Below are positions 3,666 through 17,488 of a stretch of 64,000 nt of DNA, in pieces. Position 1 is the first letter of the stretch. Each line of letters starts with the position of its first letter. The stretch is from Nonomuraea sp. NBC_00507 (GTDB taxonomy: Bacteria > Actinomycetota > Actinomycetes > Streptosporangiales > Streptosporangiaceae): contig NZ_CP107853.1 of the NCBI RefSeq assembly GCF_036013525.1, forward strand, positions 7,068,001 to 7,132,000. Reading direction: 5' to 3'. A program made the position numbers and the translations under genes. The notes beneath the pieces were generated by a model that was given only the letters and a program-made list of their open reading frames with translations, searched no databases and had not been told where the DNA came from.

Positions 3666-3700
3666 TCGCTCACACGTATGGCAGCCACATATGTGAACGA
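3666..3700. repeat. Imperfect inverted repeat in the pectate lyase leader
   Basis: TCGCTCACA (3666-3674) and TGTGAACGA (3692-3700) are inverted copies matching at 8 of 9 positions. The right arm overlaps the perfect 10-bp palindrome CACATATGTG (3686-3695). It lies between the promoter and the start codon, so it could be a second operator or an mRNA leader hairpin. Confidence 0.45.
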
Positions 3701-3768
3701 TGCTCACCTGGGGGGCCACCATCTCGCAGGCCGGCTCGGCCTGCACGGGCCAGCAAGGAGCTTGTATC

Positions 3769-5208
3769 GTGCGACACAGAATCAGCGGCAGGACAGCCGC
3801 GGTCATCGCGGGCGCCATCGCCCTCGCCGGCACCACCGTGGCCGGCATCGTGGCGGCCTCCTCCGCGGCGGCGGCGCCAGCGCCCGGGACGTACACCGTG
3901 GTGAACAACGGCAGTGGCCTGTGCCTCACCGTGCCGGGGGCCACCACGTCCGACGGCGTCCAGCTCACCCAGACCGGCTGCGGCGGCTCCGGTCAGACCT
4001 GGAACCTGGCCGCGAGCGGGAGCGGCTACACGCTCAAGGCCGCCCACAGCGGCAAGTGCGCCGGCGTGCGGGACGCCAGCACGTCCGCGGGCAAGGCCGT
4101 GCAGCAGGAGAGCTGCACCGGCGCGTCGTCCCAGACGTGGACGCTGCCCGAATCGGGCAGCACCGTCCGGGTCGTCAACGCCAACGGCGGCAAATGCCTC
4201 AACATCAAGGACAACTCGACCGCGTCCGGCGCCCTGGTGCAGCAGAACTCCTGCGACTCGGTCGCGACCAAGCAGTGGCGGCTCGTCCCCGCCGGCGGCG
4301 GCGACCCCACCCCGACCGTGACGCCGACGACACCGCCTCCCGGCCCCGGGAACCCGACCGGACTGGTCGGCTGGGCCACCCAGGGCGGCGGCACCACCGG
4401 CGGCGGCGGCGCCTCGCCCGTCACGGTCACCTCGGCCTCGGCTCTGACCAGCGCCCTGTCGGCCAGCGGCGCGTCGGTGATCCGGGTGTCCGGCACGATC
4501 TCCTGCTCCGGCATGCTGCGCGTGGCGTCCAACAAGACCGTGCTGGGCAACTCCGGCGCGACCATCGCGGGCTGCGGGTTCAACATCTCCGAGGCGTCCA
4601 ACGTGATCGTCCGCAACCTGACCTTCCGTGACTGGAACGACGACGCCATCAACATCCAGTACGCCACCCGCGTCTGGGTCGACCACAACTCCTTCAGCAA
4701 CGGCTACGACGGCGCCGTGGACGTCAAGCGGGCCAGCGACTACGTCACGATCTCGTGGAACAAGGTCTCCAGCCACAGCAAGACCATGCTGCTCGGCCAC
4801 GACGACGGCAACAGCGCCGAGGACCGCGGGCACCTGCGCGTGACGTACCACCACAACTGGTTCGACGGCACCAACAGCCGCCACCCGCGCGTGCGCTACG
4901 GCAACCCCGTGCACGTCTACAACAATTACTACGGCAACATCGGCGACTACGGCGTGGCCTCCACCCAGGAAGCCGGCGTGCTGGTCGAGGGCAACTACTT
5001 CGAGAACACCGACGACCCCTTCCACCGTGGCGAGGGCGACTCCGACCCGGGCAACCTGGTCGCGCGCAACAACCACTTCGTCAACTCCGGCGCCGGCGAC
5101 CAGGGCGGCAGCGTCGGCTCCATCCCCTACTCCTACACGCTCGACACCCCGGCCAACGTCAAGTCCATCGTGACCGGGGGCGCGGGCGCGGGCCGCATCT
5201 CCGTCTGA
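3769..5208 (+). CDS. Secreted pectate lyase (PL1) with N-terminal ricin-type CBM13, 479 aa
   Basis: An extracellular enzyme that cleaves polygalacturonate by beta-elimination. Seen: a signal peptide in residues 1-40 (twin Arg early, hydrophobic core, AAAAPAPG end); a ricin-B lectin/CBM13 domain about 42-165 with repeated GKC and QQxSC motifs; a Pro/Thr/Gly linker; then a PL1 beta-helix with WVDHNSF and the R-x-P-x-x-R signature (Arg371, Pro373, Arg376) that carries the catalytic arginine. The GTG at 3769 is chosen because CAAGGAG ends 8 bases upstream; an earlier in-frame ATG at 3700 would place residues before the signal peptide. It is controlled by the promoter/operator at 3628-3656 and followed by a strong terminator, so it is monocistronic. 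Confidence 0.92.
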   Translation: MRHRISGRTAAVIAGAIALAGTTVAGIVAASSAAAAPAPGTYTVVNNGSGLCLTVPGATTSDGVQLTQTGCGGSGQTWNLAASGSGYTLKAAHSGKCAGVRDASTSAGKAVQQESCTGASSQTWTLPESGSTVRVVNANGGKCLNIKDNSTASGALVQQNSCDSVATKQWRLVPAGGGDPTPTVTPTTPPPGPGNPTGLVGWATQGGGTTGGGGASPVTVTSASALTSALSASGASVIRVSGTISCSGMLRVASNKTVLGNSGATIAGCGFNISEASNVIVRNLTFRDWNDDAINIQYATRVWVDHNSFSNGYDGAVDVKRASDYVTISWNKVSSHSKTMLLGHDDGNSAEDRGHLRVTYHHNWFDGTNSRHPRVRYGNPVHVYNNYYGNIGDYGVASTQEAGVLVEGNYFENTDDPFHRGEGDSDPGNLVARNNHFVNSGAGDQGGSVGSIPYSYTLDTPANVKSIVTGGAGAGRISV

Positions 5209-5220
5209 CGCCTCCCGCAC

Positions 5221-5251
5221 GGCCCCTCCGGCTCCCGCCCCCGGAGGGGCC
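5221..5251 (+). terminator. Hairpin terminator after pectate lyase
   Basis: GGCCCCTCCGG (5221-5231) and CCGGAGGGGCC (5241-5251) form a perfect 11-bp stem with a 9-base loop, 12 bases after the lyase stop. No T-tract follows, as is common for actinobacterial terminators. Confidence 0.85.
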
Positions 5252-5293
5252 TCCCCGCGCCCGGTGACCATGAGCGCTTCAGGTAGCGTCTCC

Positions 5294-5320
5294 ACTCAGG
5301 TCACGAACCCCCGCCTGAGT
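5294..5320 (+). promoter_or_regulatory. Leader hairpin or operator before the alpha-galactosidase SD
   Basis: ACTCAGG (5294-5300) and CCTGAGT (5314-5320) are perfect inverted 7-mers, 13 bases apart. The right arm touches the AAGGAG ribosome site at 5321-5326, so in RNA it could hold a hairpin next to the SD. A TAGCGT -10-like hexamer (5284-5289) lies just upstream, so as DNA it would overlap the transcription start and could be an operator. Confidence 0.4.
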
Positions 5321-5334
5321 AAGGAGCCCGAACT

Positions 5335-7431
5335 TTGTCCCCCGTCATCCTCTCCGCCGCGGGCACGGCCCTGCTGCTCCTCACCGACGGCCAGGGCCTG
5401 CCGCGAGTGCGCCACTTCGGTGCGGACCTTGGCCCCGTCGCCGGGCCCGAGCTGCTTCCCGCGCTGACCTCATCGGCTCCCGCGCTGCCGCTGCTGCCCG
5501 CCCAGGGCGACGGCTGGTACGGCAGGGCGGGCTTGTCGGGCACCAGGACCGGCGAGCACTGGGCGGTGCGGTGGACCCTCGACCGGATCGACGCGCAGGC
5601 CACCCCCGGCGCCGGTGGCACGGTGACCGTCGCCGCCTCCGATGAGCGGGCGGGGCTGGCGCTGGTGAGCGAGCTGGCCATGGACGCGGGCGGCCTGGTG
5701 ACGCTGCGGCACACGGTGACCAACACCGCCGCCACGCCGTACCGGCTGGCGGGGCTGACCTGTGCGCTGCCGGTGCCCGCGCGGGCCGGCGAGCTGCTGG
5801 ACTTCACCGGCCGCTGGGCGCTGGAGAAGGTGCCGCAGCGCAGGGCGTTCGGGCATGGGGTGTGGAGCAGGGAGAACCGGCGGGGCCGCACCGGGCACGA
5901 CGCCGCCGGGCTGCTCGTGGCCGGGACCGAGGGGTTCGGCTTCGGCGGCGGCGAGGTGTGGGCGGTGCACGCCGGCTGGAGCGGCAACCACGTGCACTAC
6001 GCCGAGCGCTTCCACGAGGGGGTCGCTCTGCTGGCCGCGGGCGAGCTGCTCGAGCCCGGCGAGATCACCCTGGCCCAGGGGGAGAGCTACCGCACGCCGC
6101 CGGTGTACTTCACCTGGTCCGGGAGCGGCCTGGACGAGGCGAGCGCCCGGCTGCACGAGCACCTGCGGGCCGCCCACCCGCTGCCGGTCCGGCCCGTCAC
6201 GCTCAACAACTGGGAGGCCACCTACTTCGACCACGGCCTCGACCGGCTGCTGGAGCTGGCCGAGAAGGCCGCGGCGGCCGGGATCGAGCGGTTCGTGCTC
6301 GACGACGGCTGGTTCCGGCACCGCCGCCACGACCGCGCCGGGCTCGGCGACTGGTACGTCGACGAGGGGGTCTGGCCCGACGGGCTGCACCCGCTGGCCG
6401 ACCACGTGCGCAAGCTCGGCATGCAGTTCGGGCTCTGGTTCGAGCCGGAGATGATCAACGAGGACTCCGACCTGGCCCGCGCCCACCCCGACTGGATCCT
6501 CGGCCGGCCGGAGCGGATGCCGCCGCCGTATCGCCACCAGCAGACGCTCGACCTGGCCCGGCCGGAGGCCTACGACTACCTGCTGGAGCGGCTCGACACC
6601 CTGGTCGGCGAATACGCGCTCGACTACATCAAGTGGGACCACAACCGCGACATCGCCGAGCCCGTCCACGACGGCGTGGCCGGCGTGCACGCCCAGACGG
6701 AGGCGACCTACCGGCTGCTGGACGAGCTGCGCCGCCGCCACCCCGGCCTGGAGATCGAGTCGTGCTCGTCCGGCGGCGCCCGCGTCGACTACGGCATCCT
6801 CGCCCGCACCGACCGGGTGTGGACCTCCGACAGCAACGACGCCCTGGACCGGCAGGCCATCCAGCGCTGGACCGGGCTGCTCGTGCCGCCGGAGCGGATG
6901 GGCGCCCACGTCGGCGCGCCGCACGACCACGTCACCGGCCGGTCGCTGCCGCTGGCCTTCCGCGCCGGGACCGCGTTGTTCGGGCACATGGGCGTGGAGT
7001 GGGACCTGACCTCGGCGAGCGAGACCGACCTGGAGGAACTGGCCACGTGGATCGCCCTGCACAAGCGGCTGCGGCCGGTGCTGCACGCCGGGCGGGTGGT
7101 CCGGGCCGACCACCCCGACCCGTCGTCGCTGCTGCACGGCGTGGTGCTGCCCGAGCGCGGCGTGTATTGCTATGTGCAGGTGACCTCCCGGGTGGAGTCC
7201 GCGCCCGCGCCGCTGCGGCTGCCGGGCCTCGACCCCGCCGCCCTGTACGAGGTGCGCGTGGCGGGGCCCGTCCCGCAGGGCGCGGCGATGCCGCCGTGGG
7301 CCGCGATGCCGGAGTGGGCCGCGGCGCCGGTGCGGCTGCCCGGCGCCGCGCTGGCCGAGCTTGGGCTGCCGGCGCCGGGGCTGCGCCCGACGTCGGTGCT
7401 GGTCATCGAGGTGGAGCGGATCGCGGGCTAG
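5335..7431 (+). CDS. Alpha-galactosidase, GH36, 698 aa
   Basis: A retaining alpha-galactosidase that removes terminal alpha-galactose from raffinose-type sugars or galacto-polysaccharide side chains. Seen: an N-terminal beta-sandwich (1-290), then a TIM barrel with NNWEATYFD, LDDGWF, WFEPEMIN, the nucleophile motif YIKWDHNRD (Asp435) and the acid/base region WTSDSNDALDRQ (Asp499), and a C-terminal beta domain. About 700 residues is normal for GH36. No signal peptide, so it is probably intracellular and acts on imported oligosaccharides. The start is TTG at 5335 with AAGGAG upstream. Its TAG stop shares the CTAG at 7428-7431 with the convergent XpaC-like gene. Confidence 0.93.
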   Translation: MSPVILSAAGTALLLLTDGQGLPRVRHFGADLGPVAGPELLPALTSSAPALPLLPAQGDGWYGRAGLSGTRTGEHWAVRWTLDRIDAQATPGAGGTVTVAASDERAGLALVSELAMDAGGLVTLRHTVTNTAATPYRLAGLTCALPVPARAGELLDFTGRWALEKVPQRRAFGHGVWSRENRRGRTGHDAAGLLVAGTEGFGFGGGEVWAVHAGWSGNHVHYAERFHEGVALLAAGELLEPGEITLAQGESYRTPPVYFTWSGSGLDEASARLHEHLRAAHPLPVRPVTLNNWEATYFDHGLDRLLELAEKAAAAGIERFVLDDGWFRHRRHDRAGLGDWYVDEGVWPDGLHPLADHVRKLGMQFGLWFEPEMINEDSDLARAHPDWILGRPERMPPPYRHQQTLDLARPEAYDYLLERLDTLVGEYALDYIKWDHNRDIAEPVHDGVAGVHAQTEATYRLLDELRRRHPGLEIESCSSGGARVDYGILARTDRVWTSDSNDALDRQAIQRWTGLLVPPERMGAHVGAPHDHVTGRSLPLAFRAGTALFGHMGVEWDLTSASETDLEELATWIALHKRLRPVLHAGRVVRADHPDPSSLLHGVVLPERGVYCYVQVTSRVESAPAPLRLPGLDPAALYEVRVAGPVPQGAAMPPWAAMPEWAAAPVRLPGAALAELGLPAPGLRPTSVLVIEVERIAG

Positions 7432-8048
7432 TCCAGGTCCAGCCCGGAGCCGCCGAACCTGTCGCGCAGGAAGCGGCCCTGATCGCGCAGCGCCTGCTCG
7501 TCGCCCCGATGGATCGCCTCGGCGACCTTGCGCATCTGGGCGTCGAGCAGCGCCACCTGGGCCAGCAGCTCCTCGTGCGCGCTGCGCTCGCGGTCGGCCC
7601 GCTGGGTGAGGGCGTAGCGGCGCGGCAGGTTCGCGTACGCCTCCAGGCTGGCGGGCAGATAGCTGCGGATCGTCTGCGACACCACGTGCAGCTGGTCGGG
7701 GGAGGCGGTCAGCTGCTCGGCCCGGCCCAGCACGTCGTCGATGACCTCGCCCAGCGTCAGCACCGCCCGGTTCACGTCGGCAGGGAAGCGTCCCTCGATC
7801 CGCCGCAGCAGCGCGCGCAGGTCCTCGCGCAGCGCCCGCGTCTCGACCTCGGCGTGCGAGATCGTCAGCTTGACGCGGTCGGGCGGGGCCAGCAGCGCGC
7901 CGACCCCGTACAACGCGACCACGACCACCGGCCAGTACGCTCCGGCCAGCCCCAGGAAGTGGGCCAGCAGGCCGAGCAGCGCCAGGCACGAGCCGGCGAT
8001 GTTCCTGTTCGAGCCCAGATACCGCAGCACCCGGTCACTGATAGCCAC
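7428..8048 (-). CDS. XpaC-like membrane protein, last gene of the TelA operon, 206 aa
   Basis: Seen: two closely spaced hydrophobic helices (about residues 16-33 and 38-53) and a long, charged, helical cytoplasmic tail. This resembles the XpaC family (named for 5-bromo-4-chloroindolyl phosphate hydrolysis), whose biochemical role is unknown. In Bacillus subtilis xpaC sits next to the TelA-family gene yaaN, and here it lies in the same operon as a TelA-family gene, which supports the assignment. The GTG start at 8048 overlaps the end of the upstream VWA gene by 14 bases, indicating translational coupling. Family similarity is judged by architecture and context, so the name is tentative. Confidence 0.7.
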   Translation of the reverse strand: MAISDRVLRYLGSNRNIAGSCLALLGLLAHFLGLAGAYWPVVVVALYGVGALLAPPDRVKLTISHAEVETRALREDLRALLRRIEGRFPADVNRAVLTLGEVIDDVLGRAEQLTASPDQLHVVSQTIRSYLPASLEAYANLPRRYALTQRADRERSAHEELLAQVALLDAQMRKVAEAIHRGDEQALRDQGRFLRDRFGGSGLDLD

Positions 8049-9588
8049 GGATCTCCTTGAACGCGCTGCTCAGCGACGTCGAACGGGCGTCGAACACCGC
8101 GCCGCCGGTCAGCTGCGCCACCTGGCGCATCTCCTCGACGTCGCTCTCGCCGAACAACACGACGAACGTCGGCGTGCGCCGCCGCTCCTCCGGCAACGAC
8201 CGGTAGCGGGCCTCGAAGGCGGCGTAGTCGCCGCCGTCGGTGTTCTCGCCGTCGGTCATGAGCACGATCGAGTTGTAGCGGCCGGGGGTCACCGGCCGGT
8301 CGTAGGCCGCGCTGAGACTGTCGTAGATCGCGGTGCCGCCGCCCGCGTCCAGATCTTCGGCGAACGCCTTGATCTGCGCCAGCACCGGCTCGGGGTCCCG
8401 CTCGGGGATCGTGAACGGGACCGGCTCGTCCGGGTGGCCGCTGAACGGGATCATCGTCACGGTCTCCCGGTTGAGGAACCGCGTGAAGGCGCCGGACGCC
8501 GAGGCGTCCGCGCCGGTCAGCGCCACGAGTGCGGTGCGCAGCGCGTCGATCCTGTCGCCTTGCATCGACCCGGACGTGTCCAGCACGAACGTCGCCTCCG
8601 ACGGGACGCGCACCTTGTTGAGGTAGGTGGAGATCAGCTCGTCGGCGGTGCTGCGCCGGTTCGGGAACGGCAGCTCGATGAGCTGCGCCGAACCGAACTT
8701 GGGGTCCTGCGCCTCGCCGGGCACGATCGGCCGGCGGTGCGTGCCGGTCATGATGTCCTTCTGCACGGCGGGCGTGCGCAGCCAGGCGGCGAGCTTACCG
8801 TACAGGGCCTTCTTCTCCTCCGGGGCGGAGGCGAGCAGCGTGAGCGGGTAGTCGGCGCTGACCACGCCGTCGCTCGGGTAGATCAGCGTGACGGGCTCGC
8901 GCAGGCCCAGGAGCACCGACTCGTAGTTGACCATCCCGTCCACGCCTTGGTCGCGGGCGTACGCCTCGGCCAGCCAGCCCGACGAGCCGGCCGTCAGCCG
9001 CTGCGCCGAGAAGAAGTCCTTCAGCTTCGGCGTGACCCCGGCCACCTGCTCGGCGCTGAGCGCGCCGTCGGCGTCCGACAGCGCCGCCGCCACGCCCACC
9101 AGGGCGGAGAAGCCCGAGTTGGAGGAGGCCGGGTTCGTCATGCCGAAGCTGAAGCGGCCGTCCTTGGCCGCCGCCGCGATGTCGGCCCACGTCACCGGCT
9201 TGCCGTCCCAGCCGAGCTCGGCCGCCTTGGCCGGCTTCAGCCCCAGCACCACAGGCGAGACCATGGTCTTGGTCTGGGTGGCCAGCTTGGCCTGCGCGCC
9301 GTCGATCAGCGACAGGTAGCGGTTGGAGGAGAACCAGATCGCGTCCACCCGTTCGGCGGCGCGGCCGCTCGCGACCTGCTCAGCGCCGTCGAGCGTGCCG
9401 GTGTAGGAGAGCCTCACCTTGACGCCGGCCTCCTGCTCGGCCCGGCGCAGCAGCGGCTCGAGGTCCTTGATCTCGCTGCCGGCCAGCACCCGCAGCACAT
9501 CCGGGCCGTCAGCCGGCCCCTCGCCCTCGCCGCCGGCCCCGCACGCGGCCGCCAGCAGCAGCGCGACCGCGATCAGCGCCCGCCTCAC
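8035..9588 (-). CDS. Lipoprotein fusing a substrate-binding domain to a VWA domain, 517 aa
   Basis: Seen: a lipoprotein signal peptide with cysteine in LLLAAACGAGG (about residue 16), a periplasmic-binding-protein type II domain (about 30-320; DAIWFSSNRYL, NPASSNSGFSALVG), then a von Willebrand factor A domain with a complete MIDAS: DTSGSM (about 336), the threonine of GGGTAIYDSL and aspartate of LMTDGENTD. VWA domains bind metal and protein ligands; solute-binding domains bind small ligands. Their fusion on a lipid anchor suggests an outer-face sensor or assembly factor, not a transporter component, since no permease is near. The GTG start overlaps the TelA stop as GTGA. Function unknown. 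Confidence 0.85.
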   Translation of the reverse strand: MRRALIAVALLLAAACGAGGEGEGPADGPDVLRVLAGSEIKDLEPLLRRAEQEAGVKVRLSYTGTLDGAEQVASGRAAERVDAIWFSSNRYLSLIDGAQAKLATQTKTMVSPVVLGLKPAKAAELGWDGKPVTWADIAAAAKDGRFSFGMTNPASSNSGFSALVGVAAALSDADGALSAEQVAGVTPKLKDFFSAQRLTAGSSGWLAEAYARDQGVDGMVNYESVLLGLREPVTLIYPSDGVVSADYPLTLLASAPEEKKALYGKLAAWLRTPAVQKDIMTGTHRRPIVPGEAQDPKFGSAQLIELPFPNRRSTADELISTYLNKVRVPSEATFVLDTSGSMQGDRIDALRTALVALTGADASASGAFTRFLNRETVTMIPFSGHPDEPVPFTIPERDPEPVLAQIKAFAEDLDAGGGTAIYDSLSAAYDRPVTPGRYNSIVLMTDGENTDGGDYAAFEARYRSLPEERRRTPTFVVLFGESDVEEMRQVAQLTGGAVFDARSTSLSSAFKEIRGYQ

Positions 9589-10727
9589 TCGGAACCCTCC
9601 CTGGCCCGCTCCAGGTAGGTCTTGGCGTGGTCCAGCTCGGCCGACAGGCTGTCCACCGTGGTCGCCATGCTCTCGACCGCCTTCGCGCGGAAGGAGTCGA
9701 TGAGGTCCATCGTGGCGTAGACGTTGTCGAACGCCTGCCGGAGCGTGTCCAGGTCCACAGTGGCCGAGGCCGCCTGGTTCTGGATCGCGCCCGCCTGCGT
9801 GCGCAGCATCTCACTGGTGGCCAGGATCAGGTCGCTGGTGGTGGCGTTCAGCGCGCTGATCTGGTCGAGCACCAGCTTCTGCCCGGCCAGCGCCTGCGCG
9901 ACCGTCACCGCCGTGCGCAGCGCCGCCACCGTGGTCGTGGTGGCGCGGTTCACACCCTTGCTCAGCTCCAGGTTGTTCTTGCGCACCAGGTCCAGCGCCA
10001 GGTAGCCCTGCGCCGAGACGGCCAGCTGGGTGAGCAGGTCCTGGTGCTTCTGCCGCACCGCGAACAACGCGTCCGAGCGCAGCGCCGTGGCCCGCTGCTC
10101 GTCGGCCTGCGCGATCCGCTCCTCCAGGGCCGCGTCCATGGCCTGGGCCATGACGGCGTACTCCTGCAGGCGCGTCATCGCCTCCCACAGGTTCGCCTTC
10201 TCGCCCTCGATGGCCGCGTTGTCGCGCAGCAGCTCGTCCTGGCCGGACTTCAGCGCGCGGATGATGTCGTCGATGTGCTTCTGCGCGGAGTGGAACTTGG
10301 CGAAGTAGTCGCGCAGCCGGTCGCCGAACGGGATCAGCCCCAGCAGCTTGCGCGCCCCGCTCGCGGCCTGCTTCGGATCCAGGTCCACGACGGTACGGCG
10401 CAGCGCCACGAGGTCACCCGCGACCTTGGCCTGGGCGTCGGAGCCCTCACCCTTGGCCGCGTCGAGCGCGGCCACCGGCCGCTTGAGCATGCGGTTGGCC
10501 ACCTGCGAGGCGGACCTGATCTCGGTGTCGCCCATCGAGGAGATGTCGTGCACCTTGCGGGAGAACTCCGGCGAGCGCGGGTCGAGCCCGCCGAGCTCCC
10601 CGGCGAACTCGCGCGCCTTGGCGGTCAGCTCGGCCGTGCGCTCGCCGGACATCGGCAGCATGCCTGCCGCCGTCTCGGCCGGCACCGGCGCGACCGGCGC
10701 GGGCGGCGTGAGCACCAGATCGGACAA
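9585..10727 (-). CDS. Toxic anion resistance (TelA) family protein, 380 aa
   Basis: A TelA/KlaA/YaaN-type cytoplasmic protein, predicted mostly helical with long amphipathic segments. Seen: FSRKVHDISSMGDTEIRSASQVANRML near residues 57-83, a GLIPFGDRLRDYFAKFHSAQKHID block, then EYAVMAQAMDAALEERI and the C-terminal VYATMDLIDSFRAKAVESM block, all family features. TelA was named for tellurite resistance on IncP plasmids, but chromosomal members are linked more broadly to envelope or toxin stress. The start is TTG at 10727 with AAGGAG seven bases before. It is 13 bases after the upstream gene and overlaps the next by 4 bases. Confidence 0.85.
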   Translation of the reverse strand: MSDLVLTPPAPVAPVPAETAAGMLPMSGERTAELTAKAREFAGELGGLDPRSPEFSRKVHDISSMGDTEIRSASQVANRMLKRPVAALDAAKGEGSDAQAKVAGDLVALRRTVVDLDPKQAASGARKLLGLIPFGDRLRDYFAKFHSAQKHIDDIIRALKSGQDELLRDNAAIEGEKANLWEAMTRLQEYAVMAQAMDAALEERIAQADEQRATALRSDALFAVRQKHQDLLTQLAVSAQGYLALDLVRKNNLELSKGVNRATTTTVAALRTAVTVAQALAGQKLVLDQISALNATTSDLILATSEMLRTQAGAIQNQAASATVDLDTLRQAFDNVYATMDLIDSFRAKAVESMATTVDSLSAELDHAKTYLERAREGSE

Positions 10728-10740
10728 AGGAACTCCTTGG

Positions 10741-11823
10741 TCAGGGCCGGGCGGCGTCGATGGTCGTGATCAGCTTGTCCAGCCGCTCGTACGCAGGCGG
10801 CTCGACGACGTCGACCAGGTCGGCCGCGGCCGGCGCCTTGGTCTTGGCCACCAGGTCGGCGAACGCCTGGGGGTCGGTGGTGCGAAAGCCGTACGCGGCC
10901 GCCAGGGCCAGCAGCTTCGGGTCCTTGGTCAGCAGCTCCCCGACCCGCGTGCCCTGCCCCGAGAGCGGAACCAGGGTGTGCTTGCTGAGCACGGTGGGCG
11001 ACGGGTAGACCAGGCGCATGTCCGGCTTGATCGCGCCGTCGCCGGCGAAGACGTGCGCCAGATACTGCGCCTCGTAGACCACCAGCATCGGCGTCTTGCC
11101 GGCGCCCAGCGCCAGGTAGTCGTCGAACGACGCCTCGCTGGTCGACTCGGCGAAGCCCTGGTCGAGCACGGCCGGCGCGAGAAGGGGCGCAACCTTGGCG
11201 ATCTGGGCGTCGGAGCTGATGACGTCATCGCCGTTGGCCACGTAACCGATCACCGACAGGTACATGGCGGCGGAGTTGGACGTGCGGATGTCGGTCGTGG
11301 TTAGCAGCACCCGTTTGCGAGCCTGGTAAGCCGAATTACCCGGAATTTGGTCCCATCGGGTGCCTTTGGCAACTAATTCCAGAAATTTCTTAATGTCGAG
11401 GGTTTGGTGGCCTTTGCCGGAATCGTGGAGCACGCCGGCCTTCGTCAGCAGCGCCGCGATCGGCTCGAACGTCGCCACCGCCATCGGCGAGTAGAACGGC
11501 GAGAACGTCGTCGTGGCCTTGCGGTCGCGCTTGATCCGCTCGGCCGCCGGAACGCTGGAGGGGAAGGCGAAGGCGTACCTGCTCAGGTCCACGTCGGTGA
11601 CGATCTGCCGGGAACCGGCCGTGTCCACCTCGACGCGCAGGCCGTGCTCGGCGAAGGCCGCCTTGACCCGCGGATCGTCGAAGAACGGCTTCTTCTCCGA
11701 CCCGATGACCCCCCGTACCAGGGCTAATTCCTGGCCCTTGTCCTCCCGGCCGCCCAGGAGGATCGCGACCACCGCCACCCCGGCCAGAACCACCGCCAGA
11801 ATGACGCCGATCCAACGCTTCAT
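10741..11823 (-). CDS. Membrane-anchored substrate-binding-like protein, first gene of the TelA operon, 360 aa
   Basis: Seen: an N-terminal signal anchor (MKRWIGVILAVVLAGVAVVAI) without a lipobox cysteine, then a type-II binding-protein fold: YAFAFPSSVPAAERIKR, YSPMAVATFEPIAALL, TTDIRTSNSAAMYLSVIGYV and MLVVYEAQYLAHVF. The layout matches the binding part of the VWA lipoprotein two genes downstream, but there is no VWA here. It probably sits on the outer face of the membrane. It opens the operon (SBP-like, TelA, SBP-VWA, XpaC-like) and the promoter should lie in 11824-12050. No permease or ATPase is encoded nearby, so uptake is unlikely. A ligand cannot be predicted. Confidence 0.75.
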   Translation of the reverse strand: MKRWIGVILAVVLAGVAVVAILLGGREDKGQELALVRGVIGSEKKPFFDDPRVKAAFAEHGLRVEVDTAGSRQIVTDVDLSRYAFAFPSSVPAAERIKRDRKATTTFSPFYSPMAVATFEPIAALLTKAGVLHDSGKGHQTLDIKKFLELVAKGTRWDQIPGNSAYQARKRVLLTTTDIRTSNSAAMYLSVIGYVANGDDVISSDAQIAKVAPLLAPAVLDQGFAESTSEASFDDYLALGAGKTPMLVVYEAQYLAHVFAGDGAIKPDMRLVYPSPTVLSKHTLVPLSGQGTRVGELLTKDPKLLALAAAYGFRTTDPQAFADLVAKTKAPAAADLVDVVEPPAYERLDKLITTIDAARP

Positions 11824-11848: not shown

Positions 11849-11866
11849 CCATAACTGAAATTATGG
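11849..11866. promoter_or_regulatory. Inverted repeat upstream of the TelA operon
   Basis: CCATAA and TTATGG are perfect inverted 6-mers, 6 bases apart, in an AT-rich patch 26 bases before the first start codon. It could be an operator or part of the promoter; no regulator gene is adjacent. Confidence 0.4.
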
Positions 11867-12054
11867 AAGAGCGGCCGGGGGATGCGCGCGGGCGGAAAGC
11901 CGACCGTACGTCAGAATTCATGCGCCGTTCACGGAAGGCCGGGCCGTCCCGGTCGCTCCATCAGAAGATCGTTGACGTTCCGCGGCCACGCGCCTCTTGA
12001 CGGTCAGCGCCTCCACGGTTAACACTCTCGCAACACCGATCACGCGCGGTGTGA

Positions 12055-12068
12055 TGTTAGCGCTAACA
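12055..12068. promoter_or_regulatory. LacI-family operator TGTTAGCGCTAACA
   Basis: A perfect 14-bp palindrome with the central CG and AGCGCT core typical of LacI-family operators. It ends two bases before the AAGGAG ribosome site of the double-GH43 gene, where a bound repressor would block initiation or elongation. It shares its core with the operator in the pectate lyase promoter (3637-3650). Confidence 0.8.
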
Positions 12069-12082
12069 ATAAGGAGTCGCTG

Positions 12083-15000
12083 ATGCGACGAGGTGCTCTG
12101 GCGTGCCTGGTGGCACTGGCCGCGACCACGCTGGTGGCGTTGCCCGCCCGGGCAGCGGCCGACGGTCCGGTGTTGTGGTACAAGCTCGACGAGCAGGCGG
12201 GAGCGGTGGCGGCGGACTCGTCCGGCAACGCCCGCCACGGCACGGTGCGCGGCACGCCAGGCTGGGGCGACGGGCTGACGTTCAACGGCGGCGACACCGA
12301 CGTGAAGCTGCCGGACGACGTCATGAAGGGCATGGACTCGATCACCGTCTCCACGGACGTCCTCGTCGACCCCGCGCAGCGTACGCCGTACTTCATCTAC
12401 GGGTTCGGCAACACCAGCGGCACGAGCGGCAATGGCTACCTGTTCGCGACCGGCAACCACCTGCGTGTCGCGGTGGCCAGCGGCAACTGGTCGACCGAGC
12501 AGAACACCCGCCTGTCGACCTCGTACAACCTGGCCCGCGGCGGCTGGAAGCACCTGGTCTACACCCAGACGGGCACCACCGGCGTCCTGTACGAGGACGG
12601 CGTGGAGATCGGCCGCAACGCCAACGTCACGATCACGCCGGGCTCCATCGGCGGCGGCACGACCACGGCCAACCATCTCGGCCGGTCGGTGTACTCGGCG
12701 GACCGGCTCTTCCAGGGCAAGCTGCGCGACTTCCGGATCTACGACCGGGCGATCAGCGCGGATGAGGTGAAGGCGCTGGCGCAGCCGACCGTCGCCGCCG
12801 CGATCGCGGCCGACAAGCAGGCCCTCACCCTCGGCGACACCAGCGCCGTCACCGCCGACCTGACGCTGCCGGCCGCCGCGCCCGGCGGCTCCAAGCTGAC
12901 CTGGGCGACCAGTGACGCCTCGGTGGTCACCACTACCGGCAAGGTCACCCGGCCGGCGAACGGGCAGCCGCCCGCCACGGCCACGCTCACGGCCACCCTG
13001 GCCAGGGGCGCGCTCACCGACACCAAGACGTTCGACATCACGGTCATGCCCGAGCACGACGACGCGAAGATCGCGCAGGACGCCGCCGCCGCGCTGACGG
13101 TGCACGGCGCCGACGACGTACGCGGCAACCTCACGCTCCCCGTCACCGGCCAGAACGGCACCACGGTCTCCTGGGCCTCCGGCAAGCCGTCGGTCATCAC
13201 GCCCACCGGAGAGGTCACCCGCCCGGCCCACGGCACCGGCGACGTCACGGTCACGCTGACCGCCACAGTCACCAAGAACGCCGCCACCGCCACCCGCGCG
13301 TTCACCGCCAAGGTGCGCGAACTGCCAGGTGAGCAGGACCTCAAGGGCTACCTGTTCAGCTACTTCACCGGCGAGGGGACCGCGGACGGCGAGCAGGTCT
13401 ACTTCGCCCTCAGCCGCGGCAACGACCCGCTGCGCTGGCGCGAGCTCAACGGCGGCAAGCCCGTGCTCACCTCCACGCTGGGGGAGAAGGGCCTGCGCGA
13501 CCCGTTCATCATCCGCTCGCCCGAGGGCGACAAGTTCTACCAGATCGCCACCGACCTGCGGATCTTCGGCAACGGCAACTGGGACGCAGCCCAGCGCACC
13601 GGCAGCAAGTCGATCATGGTGTGGGAGTCGACCGACCTGGTCAACTGGGGCGAGGGCCGGCTGGTGAAGGTCTCGCCCGACACCGCGGGCAACACCTGGG
13701 CGCCGGAGGCGTACTACGACGAGACCCTCGGCGCGTACGTCGTCTTCTGGGCCTCCAAGCTCTACGCCGCCGACGACCCGAACCACACGGGCAACACCTA
13801 CAACCGGATGATGTACGCCACGACCCGCGACTTCCGCACCTTCAGCGAGCCCAAGGTGTGGGTGGACCCGGGCTACTCGGTGATCGACTCGACGGTCATC
13901 AAGCACGGCGGCACCTACTACCGCTACACCAAGGACGAGCGGAACAACTCCTCGACCACCCCGTGCAGCAAGTTCATCCTGGCCGAGACGTCCACCTCGC
14001 TGCTCAACACCACGTGGGACTTCCTTTCCGAGTGCATCGGCAAGGGCGCCATGAGCCAGGGCGAGGGCCCCACCATCTTCAAGTCCAACGACCAGGAGAA
14101 GTGGTACCTGTTCATCGACGAGTTCGGCGGGCGCGGCTACATCCCGTTCGAGTCGACGAACCTGGCCTCGGGCGCCTGGACGCCGTCGGCGAACTACTCG
14201 CTGCCCGCCAGGCCCCGCCACGGCACGGTCATCGGCGTCACGCAGGCCGAGTACGACCGGCTGCTGCGTGCCTACGCGCCCGGCCAGCTCGTCGAGAGCG
14301 CCGAGGAGGCCAAGGTCGTCACCGGCATCGGTGACGCGCCGATCCTGCCGGAGCAGGTGACCGCCACGTTCGCCGACGGCAGCACCGGCCCGGTCGCCGT
14401 CACCTGGGACGAGGTCCCGGCCTCCGCCTACGCCCAGGCGGGCACGTTCACCGTGCAGGGCACGCTGCCCGACGGCGCGTCGGTGCGGGCCAAGGCGACG
14501 GTGACCGTCTCGGCCGAGGGCGTGCCGGTGGAGAGCCTCACCGTCTCGCCCGCCGAGCTGCGGCTCGGCGTCGGCGTGAGCCGCCAGGTCAAGGCCGTCG
14601 TCGAGCCCGCGAACGCCACCGCCAGGCGGCTCACCTGGACCAGCGCCGACCCGTCCGTCGCGACGGTCAGTGCCACCGGCCTGGTGACCACGGTCAAGGC
14701 GGGCACGACCGAGATCACGGTCCGCACCGCCGACGGCTCCAAGACCGTCACCATCCCCGTCGAGGCCACCACCGAGATCCCCGCCGACCTGCTGCTGCAC
14801 TACACCTTCGACGAGAAGGCCGGCACCGTCGTCCGCGACGCCTCCGGCCGCGGCAACGAAGGCTCCTACGAGCGCACCCCGGCCTGGAGCGACGGCGTGC
14901 ACGGCGCGTCGTTCAAGATGGCGGGCGGCGCCGGCACGTCTGCGACCGCACCGTACGTCACCCTCCCGTACGGCGTGCTCAAGGACGTCTCCGACGTGAC

Positions 15001-17488
15001 CGTGGCCTTCCACGTCAAATGGAACGCCTCCGCTACGGCCAACCAGTGGATCTACGGCCTCGGCCCGGACCGCAACAAGTACCTGTTCACCGGGCCCCGC
15101 AACGGCGCCGGCGTGCTGTTCTCGGCGATCACCACTGGCAGCTGGCAGGCGGAGTCGTCCATGCGGCACTCGGCGGCGCTGCCCGGCGGCGAGTGGAAGC
15201 ACCTCGCGGTGACGCTCGACTCGGCCGCGAAGACGATGGTCATGTACCTCGACGGCGTCGAGATCGCCCGCGCGCCGAACATCACGGTCAAGCCGTCCGA
15301 CCTCTATGACGCCGCCAAGACCTACGGCGGTTATATCGGCAGGTCGCTGTACGCCGAGGACCCGTACTTCGCCGGCGAGGTGGACGACTTCCGCGTCTAC
15401 GGCCGCGCGCTGCCGGCCGCGGAGATCTACGAGCTCGGCGGCGACCCCGCCGCGATCATCGGCGTGACCCTGCCGCAGCTCAAGGTCGACGCCATCGTGG
15501 ACGCCGACGGCGGCCGGATCACGCTGCCGCTGAAGGAGGGCAGCGACGTCACCAAGCTGGCGCCGCAGCTCACCCTCGCCCCCGGCGCCACCGTCAGCCC
15601 GGCCTCCGGCGCGGAGCGGGACTTCACCGAGCCCGTCACCTACACCGTGACCGGCGCGGACGGCACGAAACGGGAGTGGACGGTCACCGCGCTCGTCATG
15701 AAGAGCCCGGTGCTGCCCGGCCTGTACGCCGACCCCAACCTCGTGGTGTTCGGCGACCGCTTCTACCTGTATCCGACCACGGACGGCTTCGCGGGGTGGA
15801 GCGGGACCCAGTTCAAGGCGTTCTCCTCGACCGACCTGGTGCACTGGACCGACCACGGCGTCATCCTCGACCTGGGACCCGACGTGACATGGGCGGACAA
15901 CAGCGCCTGGGCGCCGGCGATCGCCGAGAAGGACGGCAAATACTACTTCTACTTCAGCGGCGGCATGGCCACCGGCAACACGGCCAAGCACCTCGGGGTG
16001 GCCGTGGCGGACTCGCCGACGGGACCGTTCAGGGACGCGCTCGGCAAGCCGCTCGTCCCGGCCGGGACCTACTCCGGGCAGATGATCGACCCGTCCGTGT
16101 TCCAGGACGACGACGGGCAGCACTACCTGTACTGGGGGAACGGCAACTCCTACCAGGTGCCGCTGAACGCCGACATGGTCTCGTTCGACGCCGCGAAGGT
16201 GAAGACGTACAAGCCGGCCGGATACAACGAAGGCTCGTTCGTCATCAAGCGGGACGGCACCTACTACTTCATGTGGTCGGAGAACGACACCCGCAGCGAG
16301 GACTACCAGGTGGCCTACGCCACCGGCGAGACGCCGCTCGGCCCCTGGACCAAGCGCGGCGTCATCCTGCGCAAGAACCTCGCGCTCGGGATCAAGGGCA
16401 CCGGCCACCACTCCGTGATCCGCGTGCCCGGCACCGATGACTGGTACATCGCCTACCACCGCTTCGCCATCCCCGGCGGCGACGGCACCCACCGGGAGAC
16501 CACGATCGACCGGCTGGAGTTCGGCGACGACGGGCTGATCAAGCCCGTGACGCCGACGCTGGAGAGCATCGATCCCGTCGCGGTCGTGACCGCAGGGCCC
16601 GACGCCTCCGGCGCAGAAGGCTCACCGATCGCGCTGGCGGGCACGTTCTCCGGAGCGGGCACGCCCGCCTGGCGGTACGAGGCCGCCGACGGGGCCGAGG
16701 GCACCTGCTCCTTCGCCGACCCCGCCACGCCGCGCACCACGGTGACCTGCACGGACGAGGGCGTCTACCGGGTCACGCTCACCGCCGGGCGCAGCCGGGA
16801 CACCGCGACCGTCACCGTCGCCAACGCCCGCCCCGCCATCACCCGCGTGTCGGGTCCGCAGGATCCCGTCGCGGCCGGTAAGACCGTGGAGCTGGCGGTC
16901 ACGTCCAGCGACCCAGGGGTGGACACGCTCACCTGCGAGGTCGACTGGACGGACGGCGCCACCGGACCGTGCGCGGAGGGCCACGCCTATGCGAAGGCGG
17001 GCATCTACCAGCCGGTGGTCACGGTCGCCGACGGCGACGGCGGCACGGCCGTGGCGACGGCCGATCCCGTCGTGGTCTACGACCCGACGGCCGGGTTCGT
17101 CACCGGCGGCGGCTGGATCGGCTCGCCGGCGGGCGCGCAGCCCGGCAAGCCGGCGGCGACGGGCAAGGCCGTGTTCGGGTTCGTGTCGGCGTATCAGAAG
17201 GACGCCACCCGCCCGGCCGGACAGACCGCCTTCGCCTTCCCGGCGGGCGGCGTCACCTTCGTCGCCACCCGCTACGACTGGCTCGTAGTGACCGGCGGCG
17301 AGGTCCGCTACCGGGGCGTCGGCAAGGTCAACGGCAAGCCCGGGTACGCCTTCACGGTCACCGCCCTCGACGGGGCTGCCGACAGGTTCCAGATCAGGAT
17401 CTGGAACGAGGCGAGCGGCGAGGTCCTCTACGACAACCGGGGCACCGACATCGGCGGCGGCGAGATCGTCGTCCATGAGAGGAGGTAA
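12083..17488 (+). CDS. Secreted multidomain protein with two GH43 domains, 1801 aa
   Basis: Domains in order: signal peptide (1-29); LamG/concanavalin-like (30-230); two Ig-like bacterial repeats (235-412); GH43 number 1 (415-732; Asp473 in RDPFII, Asp602 in VIDST, Glu661 in GEGPT); bacterial Ig/BIG2 (735-893); second LamG (898-1125); short linker domain; GH43 number 2 (1210-1490; Asp1217 in YADPN, Asp1336 in MIDPS, Glu1383 in NEGS); PKD-like repeats; and a C-terminal beta domain starting at TGGGWIGSP. GH43 enzymes are mostly arabinofuranosidases, arabinanases or xylosidases, so it probably strips arabinose or xylose side chains from plant polysaccharide. Both catalytic triads look intact. 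The ATG at 12083 follows AAGGAG and the palindrome at 12055-12068. Confidence 0.9.
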   Translation: MRRGALACLVALAATTLVALPARAAADGPVLWYKLDEQAGAVAADSSGNARHGTVRGTPGWGDGLTFNGGDTDVKLPDDVMKGMDSITVSTDVLVDPAQRTPYFIYGFGNTSGTSGNGYLFATGNHLRVAVASGNWSTEQNTRLSTSYNLARGGWKHLVYTQTGTTGVLYEDGVEIGRNANVTITPGSIGGGTTTANHLGRSVYSADRLFQGKLRDFRIYDRAISADEVKALAQPTVAAAIAADKQALTLGDTSAVTADLTLPAAAPGGSKLTWATSDASVVTTTGKVTRPANGQPPATATLTATLARGALTDTKTFDITVMPEHDDAKIAQDAAAALTVHGADDVRGNLTLPVTGQNGTTVSWASGKPSVITPTGEVTRPAHGTGDVTVTLTATVTKNAATATRAFTAKVRELPGEQDLKGYLFSYFTGEGTADGEQVYFALSRGNDPLRWRELNGGKPVLTSTLGEKGLRDPFIIRSPEGDKFYQIATDLRIFGNGNWDAAQRTGSKSIMVWESTDLVNWGEGRLVKVSPDTAGNTWAPEAYYDETLGAYVVFWASKLYAADDPNHTGNTYNRMMYATTRDFRTFSEPKVWVDPGYSVIDSTVIKHGGTYYRYTKDERNNSSTTPCSKFILAETSTSLLNTTWDFLSECIGKGAMSQGEGPTIFKSNDQEKWYLFIDEFGGRGYIPFESTNLASGAWTPSANYSLPARPRHGTVIGVTQAEYDRLLRAYAPGQLVESAEEAKVVTGIGDAPILPEQVTATFADGSTGPVAVTWDEVPASAYAQAGTFTVQGTLPDGASVRAKATVTVSAEGVPVESLTVSPAELRLGVGVSRQVKAVVEPANATARRLTWTSADPSVATVSATGLVTTVKAGTTEITVRTADGSKTVTIPVEATTEIPADLLLHYTFDEKAGTVVRDASGRGNEGSYERTPAWSDGVHGASFKMAGGAGTSATAPYVTLPYGVLKDVSDVTVAFHVKWNASATANQWIYGLGPDRNKYLFTGPRNGAGVLFSAITTGSWQAESSMRHSAALPGGEWKHLAVTLDSAAKTMVMYLDGVEIARAPNITVKPSDLYDAAKTYGGYIGRSLYAEDPYFAGEVDDFRVYGRALPAAEIYELGGDPAAIIGVTLPQLKVDAIVDADGGRITLPLKEGSDVTKLAPQLTLAPGATVSPASGAERDFTEPVTYTVTGADGTKREWTVTALVMKSPVLPGLYADPNLVVFGDRFYLYPTTDGFAGWSGTQFKAFSSTDLVHWTDHGVILDLGPDVTWADNSAWAPAIAEKDGKYYFYFSGGMATGNTAKHLGVAVADSPTGPFRDALGKPLVPAGTYSGQMIDPSVFQDDDGQHYLYWGNGNSYQVPLNADMVSFDAAKVKTYKPAGYNEGSFVIKRDGTYYFMWSENDTRSEDYQVAYATGETPLGPWTKRGVILRKNLALGIKGTGHHSVIRVPGTDDWYIAYHRFAIPGGDGTHRETTIDRLEFGDDGLIKPVTPTLESIDPVAVVTAGPDASGAEGSPIALAGTFSGAGTPAWRYEAADGAEGTCSFADPATPRTTVTCTDEGVYRVTLTAGRSRDTATVTVANARPAITRVSGPQDPVAAGKTVELAVTSSDPGVDTLTCEVDWTDGATGPCAEGHAYAKAGIYQPVVTVADGDGGTAVATADPVVVYDPTAGFVTGGGWIGSPAGAQPGKPAATGKAVFGFVSAYQKDATRPAGQTAFAFPAGGVTFVATRYDWLVVTGGEVRYRGVGKVNGKPGYAFTVTALDGAADRFQIRIWNEASGEVLYDNRGTDIGGGEIVVHERR

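Follow-up and report, generated by a model that had tools for sequence, protein, structure and literature searches.

A TelA operon with solute-binding and VWA domain proteins in Nonomuraea sp. NBC_00507: composition, linkage and a possible role in envelope sensing

Described settings of TelA

The TelA protein has so far been tied to tellurite, nisin and envelope stress, with no consensus on its mechanism. The operon described here lies in a 64,000-nucleotide stretch of Nonomuraea sp. NBC_00507 (contig NZ_CP107853.1, positions 7,068,001 to 7,132,000; hereafter the window) and consists of four packed minus-strand genes, A to D, at 7428-11823, the second of which encodes TelA; it gives this protein fixed partners predicted to sit on the outer face of the membrane, with a ligand-binding fold and an intact metal site between them, and a conserved promoter element precedes it. 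In the accessible parts of the literature, a Listeria TelA mutant is more sensitive to nisin and tellurite (PMC12791056), xpaC-yaaN belongs to the sigma-W regulon (PMC3498285), and a jumbo-phage survey repeats the proposal that TelA builds sub-membrane structures (PMC7824862). The xpaC-yaaN and xpaC-telA pairs of Bacillus and Listeria likewise place TelA beside a small two-helix membrane protein. A and C are not named with these pairs in the same parts of the reports (PMC12791056, PMC3498285).

Other described arrangements resemble the operon in different respects. Ter-type operons (TerD, TerC, TelA) include a helical TelA partner that matches the C-terminal part of D, whereas the operon here has VWA and binding modules that probably lie outside the cell. 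A TelA operon found on Vibrio plasmids (L148 and L149) likewise unites TelA with VWA and binding proteins on the extracytoplasmic side, its products including a VWA lipoprotein as well as binding proteins of OmpA-linked and NMT1-like type; unlike the operon here, it carries its own permease and ATP-binding cassette (ABC) ATPase, belongs to a different lineage, and has binding proteins without significant match to A or C. The sulfate/thiamine/ferric-type ABC binding proteins, such as 1sbp and SubI (6ddn), are 15-18% identical to A, but A is membrane-anchored and its own operon is without a permease or ATPase. PspA envelope-stress operons of other actinobacteria combine a related protein with solute-binding-protein (SBP) and VWA domains, a two-helix protein and a cytosolic helical membrane protein, with PspA in TelA's place and no A homologue. 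TelA, VWA and binding proteins are known kinds of protein, and their assembly here looks like a TelA-based device with a sensor-like outer module. No description of the A-B-C-D operon was found in searches of the open-licence PubMed Central literature, a scope that does not include the key Ter survey (Anantharaman 2012); the priority of the present description is uncertain, and an earlier mention of TelA with SBP-VWA genes is possible.

Proteins of the operon

Calling of open reading frames (ORFs) recovered the four genes exactly where a preliminary description of this DNA had placed them, with gaps or overlaps of 13, -4 and -14 bases. Their features are as follows.

10741 to 11823, minus strand: gene A, N-terminal membrane anchor and type II solute-binding-protein fold, 360 residues (ORF, structure model, structural matches)
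11755 to 11820, minus strand: membrane anchor of A, residues 2-23 (model helix 2-23; hydrophobicity by reading)
9585 to 10727, minus strand: gene B, TelA (PF05816), 380 residues, TTG start (Pfam, 291.9 bits)
8035 to 9588, minus strand: gene C, lipoprotein with solute-binding and VWA domains, 517 residues (Pfam; lipobox LAAAC by reading)
8758 to 9495, minus strand: SBP_bac_11 domain of C, residues 32-277 (Pfam)
8074 to 8592, minus strand: VWA domain of C, residues 333-505, with an intact metal-ion-dependent adhesion site, MIDAS (Pfam, alignment)
7428 to 8048, minus strand: gene D, two-helix membrane hairpin and cytosolic helical domain, 206 residues, GTG start (ORF; helices and location by reading)

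Gene A had been described as an anchored binding-protein-like protein, and its structure model (predicted local distance difference test score, pLDDT, 87.6) bears this out: a helix at residues 2-23 is followed by an alpha/beta fold that is the two-lobed fold of ABC-type solute-binding proteins, with 1sbp, 5um2, 2qry and 6ddn as the top structural matches. Pfam returned no significant family match for A or D, and none of the four operon proteins matched NCBIfam above a curated cut-off; in profile comparison, A matches the binding domain of C. The C protein joins SBP_bac_11 and VWA domains, and its motif residues SE (38-39), SNSG (156-159), SS (202-203) and YE (222-223) are retained in 50 to 52 of the 52 aligned C proteins. 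The MIDAS residues read earlier from the single sequence (DxSxS, T and D) hold across the family, all five being present in 51 of 51 readable C proteins in an alignment count that excludes L104, a Nonomuraea record. RGY occurs within the final eight residues in 46 of 53 C proteins, and a lipobox pattern was detected in 43 of 53; in the C protein of a metagenome-assembled genome (MAG) labelled Methylomonas, a membrane helix seems, by reading, to stand in for the lipobox. The proposed topology, with A and C outside and TelA inside, is consistent with these sequences.

Membership of B in the TelA family is clear from its match to PF05816 (E 7.9e-87, above cut-off). It is the sole TelA found in its 12.9 Mb genome, and its closest relatives among the best 80 TelA loci are from Nonomuraea.

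XpaC is a small two-helix membrane protein with a YLPTTL-type motif, which in this analysis was seen only in L105. By reading, a hydrophobic hairpin precedes a helical domain in D, which had been called XpaC-like; PF10112 (XpaC) matched neither D, with E values up to 1 admitted, nor the relatives of D, with E values up to 10, and D is not filed as XpaC for this reason. Comparison of D with three XpaC-type proteins by hhalign gave E 0.0097 and a probability of 4%. The likeness therefore does not hold by sequence, but it retains a counterpart in gene position: in G099, a variant with the order C-D-A-B, the place of D is taken by a PF10112 protein (39.7 bits, above cut-off), and in G120 the protein at this position scores 22.3 bits, below cut-off. 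Over its last 135 residues, D is alignable by hhalign (E 2e-24) with a profile of four proteins from three loci, which represents the TelA partner found elsewhere.

Linkage and distribution

The TelA locus sample comprised the best 80 of at least 562 confirmed stretches, that is, close relatives of B, and locus content was called at profile thresholds of 80 (A), 25 (B), 200 (C) and 25 bits (D). Complete A-B-C-D sets were found in 38 loci, A-B-C up to the contig end in one (L054), B-D in 39, and B only in two, so that A and C were jointly present or jointly absent in 80/80. These 38 complete loci bear out the expectation that the four genes stay together in order, and L054 may be added as a set that ends at a contig edge; a B-D pair without A/C, as in the 39 loci, is a feature shared with Ter-type operons. 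In a wider sample of 396 actinobacterial genomes, C exceeded 200 bits in nine and A was present in 11, with A adjoining C in all nine C genomes (in G228 the set is split over two small contigs, with part of A beside C). TelA was above cut-off in 17 of the 396 and detected at E 0.001 in 23; all nine A+C genomes are among the 17, an overlap with a hypergeometric value of 4e-14 when kinship is ignored.

As to REARRANGEMENT and spread, the order is A-C-D-B in G077, where the D-like protein was found by reading and not by profile, and C-XpaC-A-TelA in G099 and G120. Plasmid records of Sphaerotilus and Variovorax hold A-B-C-D, the latter with a small extra ORF between B and C, and the gammaproteobacterial MAG labelled Methylomonas has all four genes, with two more inserted between A and B. 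Beyond actinobacteria, the set occurs in Betaproteobacteria, in this one gammaproteobacterial MAG and, without TelA, in Deinococcus. By reading, the two inserted genes of the MAG (L077:5988-7913; 379 and 260 residues) look like those for an ATPase of the AAA type and, perhaps, a TOPRIM-like partner protein. On the Variovorax plasmid (L100:1-18000), the four-gene set stands between Wadjet genes and an OB-fold/flotillin pair, and G128 holds a second A-C pair (L090:8692-12345) with no TelA in 20 kb, followed by an overlapping gene for a 257-residue protein without a Pfam family.

A TelA tree of 75 rows was built, in which Streptosporangiaceae are represented by 16 of their 32 loci; the remaining rows are the other TelA loci of the 80, all of them included, and ten more. 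On this tree, the label "with A/C" requires six changes: one supported set holds 30 rows with A/C plus three without, and G099 and G120 fall on a far branch together with L105, which is without A/C. The pattern suggests at least two associations of the A/C module with TelA, or one ancient association with losses, and the tree does not discriminate between the two. The Variovorax TelA has a branch length of 7.45, and its place in the tree was consequently not used.

The loci with A/C also differ from other TelA loci in their Ter genes. With two Pfam-confirmed TerD queries (phmmer, E 1e-6), TerD relatives were found in 37 of the 41 TelA loci that lack A/C and in none of the 52 loci that carry A/C, some of these loci being short; none was found in the window's own genome. 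The combination of TerD with TelA that marks a Ter system is thus not seen at A/C loci, and from these counts TelA, mostly with a D-type helical domain, appears to be paired with Ter genes or with A/C and rarely with neither.

The preliminary description had stressed that no transporter accompanies the binding proteins, and had named a permease and ATPase consistently next to the VWA lipoprotein as what would speak against a dedicated complex; this is not what was found. A scan with three ABC ATPase queries, with permeases outside its scope and some loci ending sooner, found such an ATPase no farther than 1 kb from the A/C set in only 2 of 51 loci (L084 and L091), a count that rises to 11 at 3 kb and to 15 at 5 kb, and a motif check of the nearest called gene on each side pointed to one in 1 of 51, the motif having missed L084. 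The permease and ATPase that stand with the binding protein of an ABC importer are not a part of this set, and its interpretation as an ordinary ABC transporter fragment finds no support in these neighbour counts.

Weaker relatives of C in the phylum search, most of which match from about profile position 115-151 onward, revealed a parallel family linked to PspA. It was sampled in 20 loci, drawn from 18 of the 26 genomes with only weak C matches and from two plasmid records. A same-strand gene for a two-helix coiled-coil protein is present in 15 of the 20 (L095, L097, L102 and L103 supplied the queries and match by construction), a PspA relative in 13 (query from L095, whose protein is PspA_IM30 by Pfam, 2.4e-20), and SBP-VWA, two-helix and PspA genes occur together in 12: L095, L097, L110-L118 and L120. 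In some loci the three genes directly adjoin; elsewhere the distances between them reach about 2.5 kb. Neither partner was found in L096, L121 and L123, PspA was not found in L094, L102 and L103, and the two-helix gene was not found in L122; L119 ends at a contig edge. No A homologue was detected in these 20 loci, and PspA, searched with one query, gave no match at E 1e-3 in loci outside them. The parallel is one of design alone, namely an outer SBP-VWA protein, a two-helix protein and a cytosolic helical membrane protein, since the two-helix proteins align unconvincingly; D was considered as a remote relative of the PspA-operon two-helix protein and rejected, as only 29 columns align and the likeness is architectural. 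On this parallel, the roles of TelA and PspA, each behind a similar sensor, may be comparable. The main text of a phage shock protein survey (PMC11237479), in the part available, does not contain "VWA", "von Willebrand" or "substrate-binding". In L097, a MurJ gene lies among the SBP-VWA, two-helix and PspA genes.

Promoter element, mechanism and alternatives

The PHO-box-like element upstream of the operon, like the exclusion of TerD and the PspA-linked family, goes beyond the preliminary description. In the window, two upstream features were noted.

11913 to 11931, minus strand: conserved element TGAACN6TGAATTCT with 11-base repeat geometry, PHO-box-like (upstream-region scans)
11860 to 11865, minus strand: CATAAT, a candidate -10 hexamer that recurs in related upstream regions (unaligned upstream sequences by eye)

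The pattern TGAACN6TGAAY lies 300 bases or less upstream of A in 29 of 44 scanned regions. All but one of these belong to Streptosporangiaceae (28 of that family's 32 loci, 26 of them with a complete TGAATTCT); the exception is L054, a MAG of a distant actinobacterium, in which three TGAAC units stand at exact 11-base spacing. In the 31 Streptosporangiaceae loci besides that of the window, 27 carry the element upstream, and their 504,788 bases, scanned on both strands, contain one other match; the family's loci without it are L005, L006 (277 bases upstream only), L020 and L049, with near-matches in L005 and L020. A sigma-70 consensus scan and an Rfam RNA search near the operon found nothing. 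TGAAC is the reversed GTTCA of the PHO-box core, and in the same genome as the operon a three-unit motif precedes a PhoU_div-PiT operon; in Sphaerotilus, a PhoX phosphatase gene lies four bases from gene A. In Streptomyces coelicolor, according to the available parts of two reports, PHO boxes are 11-base direct repeats with the core GTTCACC (PMC4415409, PMC7866108) and PhoP binds upstream of pitH2 (PMC7866108). The available part of a further report states that TerD-type proteins differ between two Streptomyces species and does not state PhoP control of TelA (PMC7244524). Judged from the conserved element, the operon is probably under phosphate control in Streptosporangiaceae, possibly through PhoP.

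We propose, at what we consider even chances, that the operon encodes one envelope-spanning sensing complex, with A and C outside and D coupling them to TelA inside. The related outer-face binding domains of membrane-anchored A and lipoprotein C would each take a small, probably anionic ligand, identical or similar for the two, and the VWA domain of C would grip a partner through its metal ion in a ligand-dependent manner. The hairpin and cytosolic helical domain of D would then relay this state to the inner side, where TelA, a protein of long helices, may act beneath the membrane and protect it, as proposed by analogy with the TelA literature. In Streptosporangiaceae, the phosphate regulator PhoP would switch the operon on. 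The ligand of A and C, contact between D and TelA, and phosphate control become testable questions on this proposal. The earlier interpretation of the locus stands as regards a conserved unit, the lack of a consistent transporter and a fitting topology, and is not supported as regards D, which is no XpaC by sequence, and a role in defence, for which one Wadjet neighbour is all that speaks.

Other explanations would account for parts of this evidence. A and C might scavenge for a transporter encoded elsewhere, with TelA and D merely sharing their operon: the fold of A is a transporter binding-protein fold, the Vibrio plasmid operon unites TelA, a VWA lipoprotein and binding proteins with a permease and an ABC ATPase, and 15 of 51 loci have an ABC ATPase, related or not, at a distance of 5 kb or less. 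That just two of these lie within 1 kb, and that two membrane-attached binding proteins, one of them fused to VWA, are strictly paired at TelA loci, which is unusual for scavenging, makes this explanation rather improbable. Phosphate-starvation remodelling of the wall or of membrane lipids, in which the ligand of A and C would be phosphorylated, a wall polymer or a lipid fragment, while TelA and D adjust the membrane, would agree with the PHO-box-like element, the PhoX neighbour in Sphaerotilus and the PspA parallel; outside Streptosporangiaceae, however, L054 alone was seen to have the full element, Streptomyces having weaker sites, and we think this explanation quite unlikely.

A Ter-type resistance or defence function, in which a toxic oxyanion, a bacteriocin or an attacking phage would be sensed by A and C, with TelA as the protector of the membrane, draws on the TelA literature as far as it was accessible (PMC12791056, PMC7824862), on the TerD counts (0/52 against 37/41), on the Wadjet genes beside the Variovorax copy and on a patchy spread outside Streptosporangiaceae that points to a roaming island. 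The PADLOC anti-phage models, however, gave 0 families for the four proteins at E up to 1, no TelA relative was found in 50,697 phage records (tblastn, with this TelA as query), and the TelA tree shows the operon to be common to many Streptosporangiaceae genera, a distribution closer to that of a family trait than to that of a mobile defence island. We regard this function as unlikely.

Several findings count against a sensing complex under phosphate control. The TelA structure model is weak (pLDDT 67.4) and has no fold match at E 0.001 or better, and the TelA fold was dropped as a guide to mechanism on these grounds. Two genomes of one genus, G050 and G235, have A without C or TelA; a plasmid record of Deinococcus has A-C-D with no TelA seen within 20 kb; and L033, L037, L064 and L073 carry neither A/C nor detected TerD, so that the two contexts of TelA are not exhaustive. 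As to the promoter element, its second half, TGAATTCT, differs from the standard PHO repeat, and its pattern is not clearly enriched genome-wide, with 15 matches against 6 for a reversed control. No such element was found close to the pstS-like gene, and at phoU-phoR there is just a partial one; upstream regions of Cryobacterium and Janibacter have none, and Streptomyces-like loci have only sites with one or two mismatches. At the N-terminus, the products of the A genes that occur alone are extended by well over 100 residues (L082:9526-11007, L083:8980-10536).

A sensing complex of this kind may also be an instance of a general bacterial design, in which a transporter-free extracytoplasmic SBP-VWA sensor acts by way of a two-helix hairpin on a cytosolic protein that guards the membrane and is interchangeable, TelA in one branch and PspA in the other, the TelA branch of Streptosporangiaceae being phosphate-controlled. 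This generalization is tentative and, in our estimation, more doubtful than probable; if true, it would supply an input signal for TelA and for the two-helix protein that partners it.

The operon lies amid genes that we take, from reading of their products, to be carbohydrate genes. At 3700-7431 stand what are presumably a ricin-type/pectate-lyase-like protein and then an alpha-galactosidase-like protein, the end of which overlaps D by 4 bases, and at 12083-17488 a large, presumably LamG-containing protein. Ahead of this large divergent gene at 12083 lies a perfect palindrome, TGTTAGCGCTAACA, at 12055-12068, which by reading resembles operators of the LacI family.

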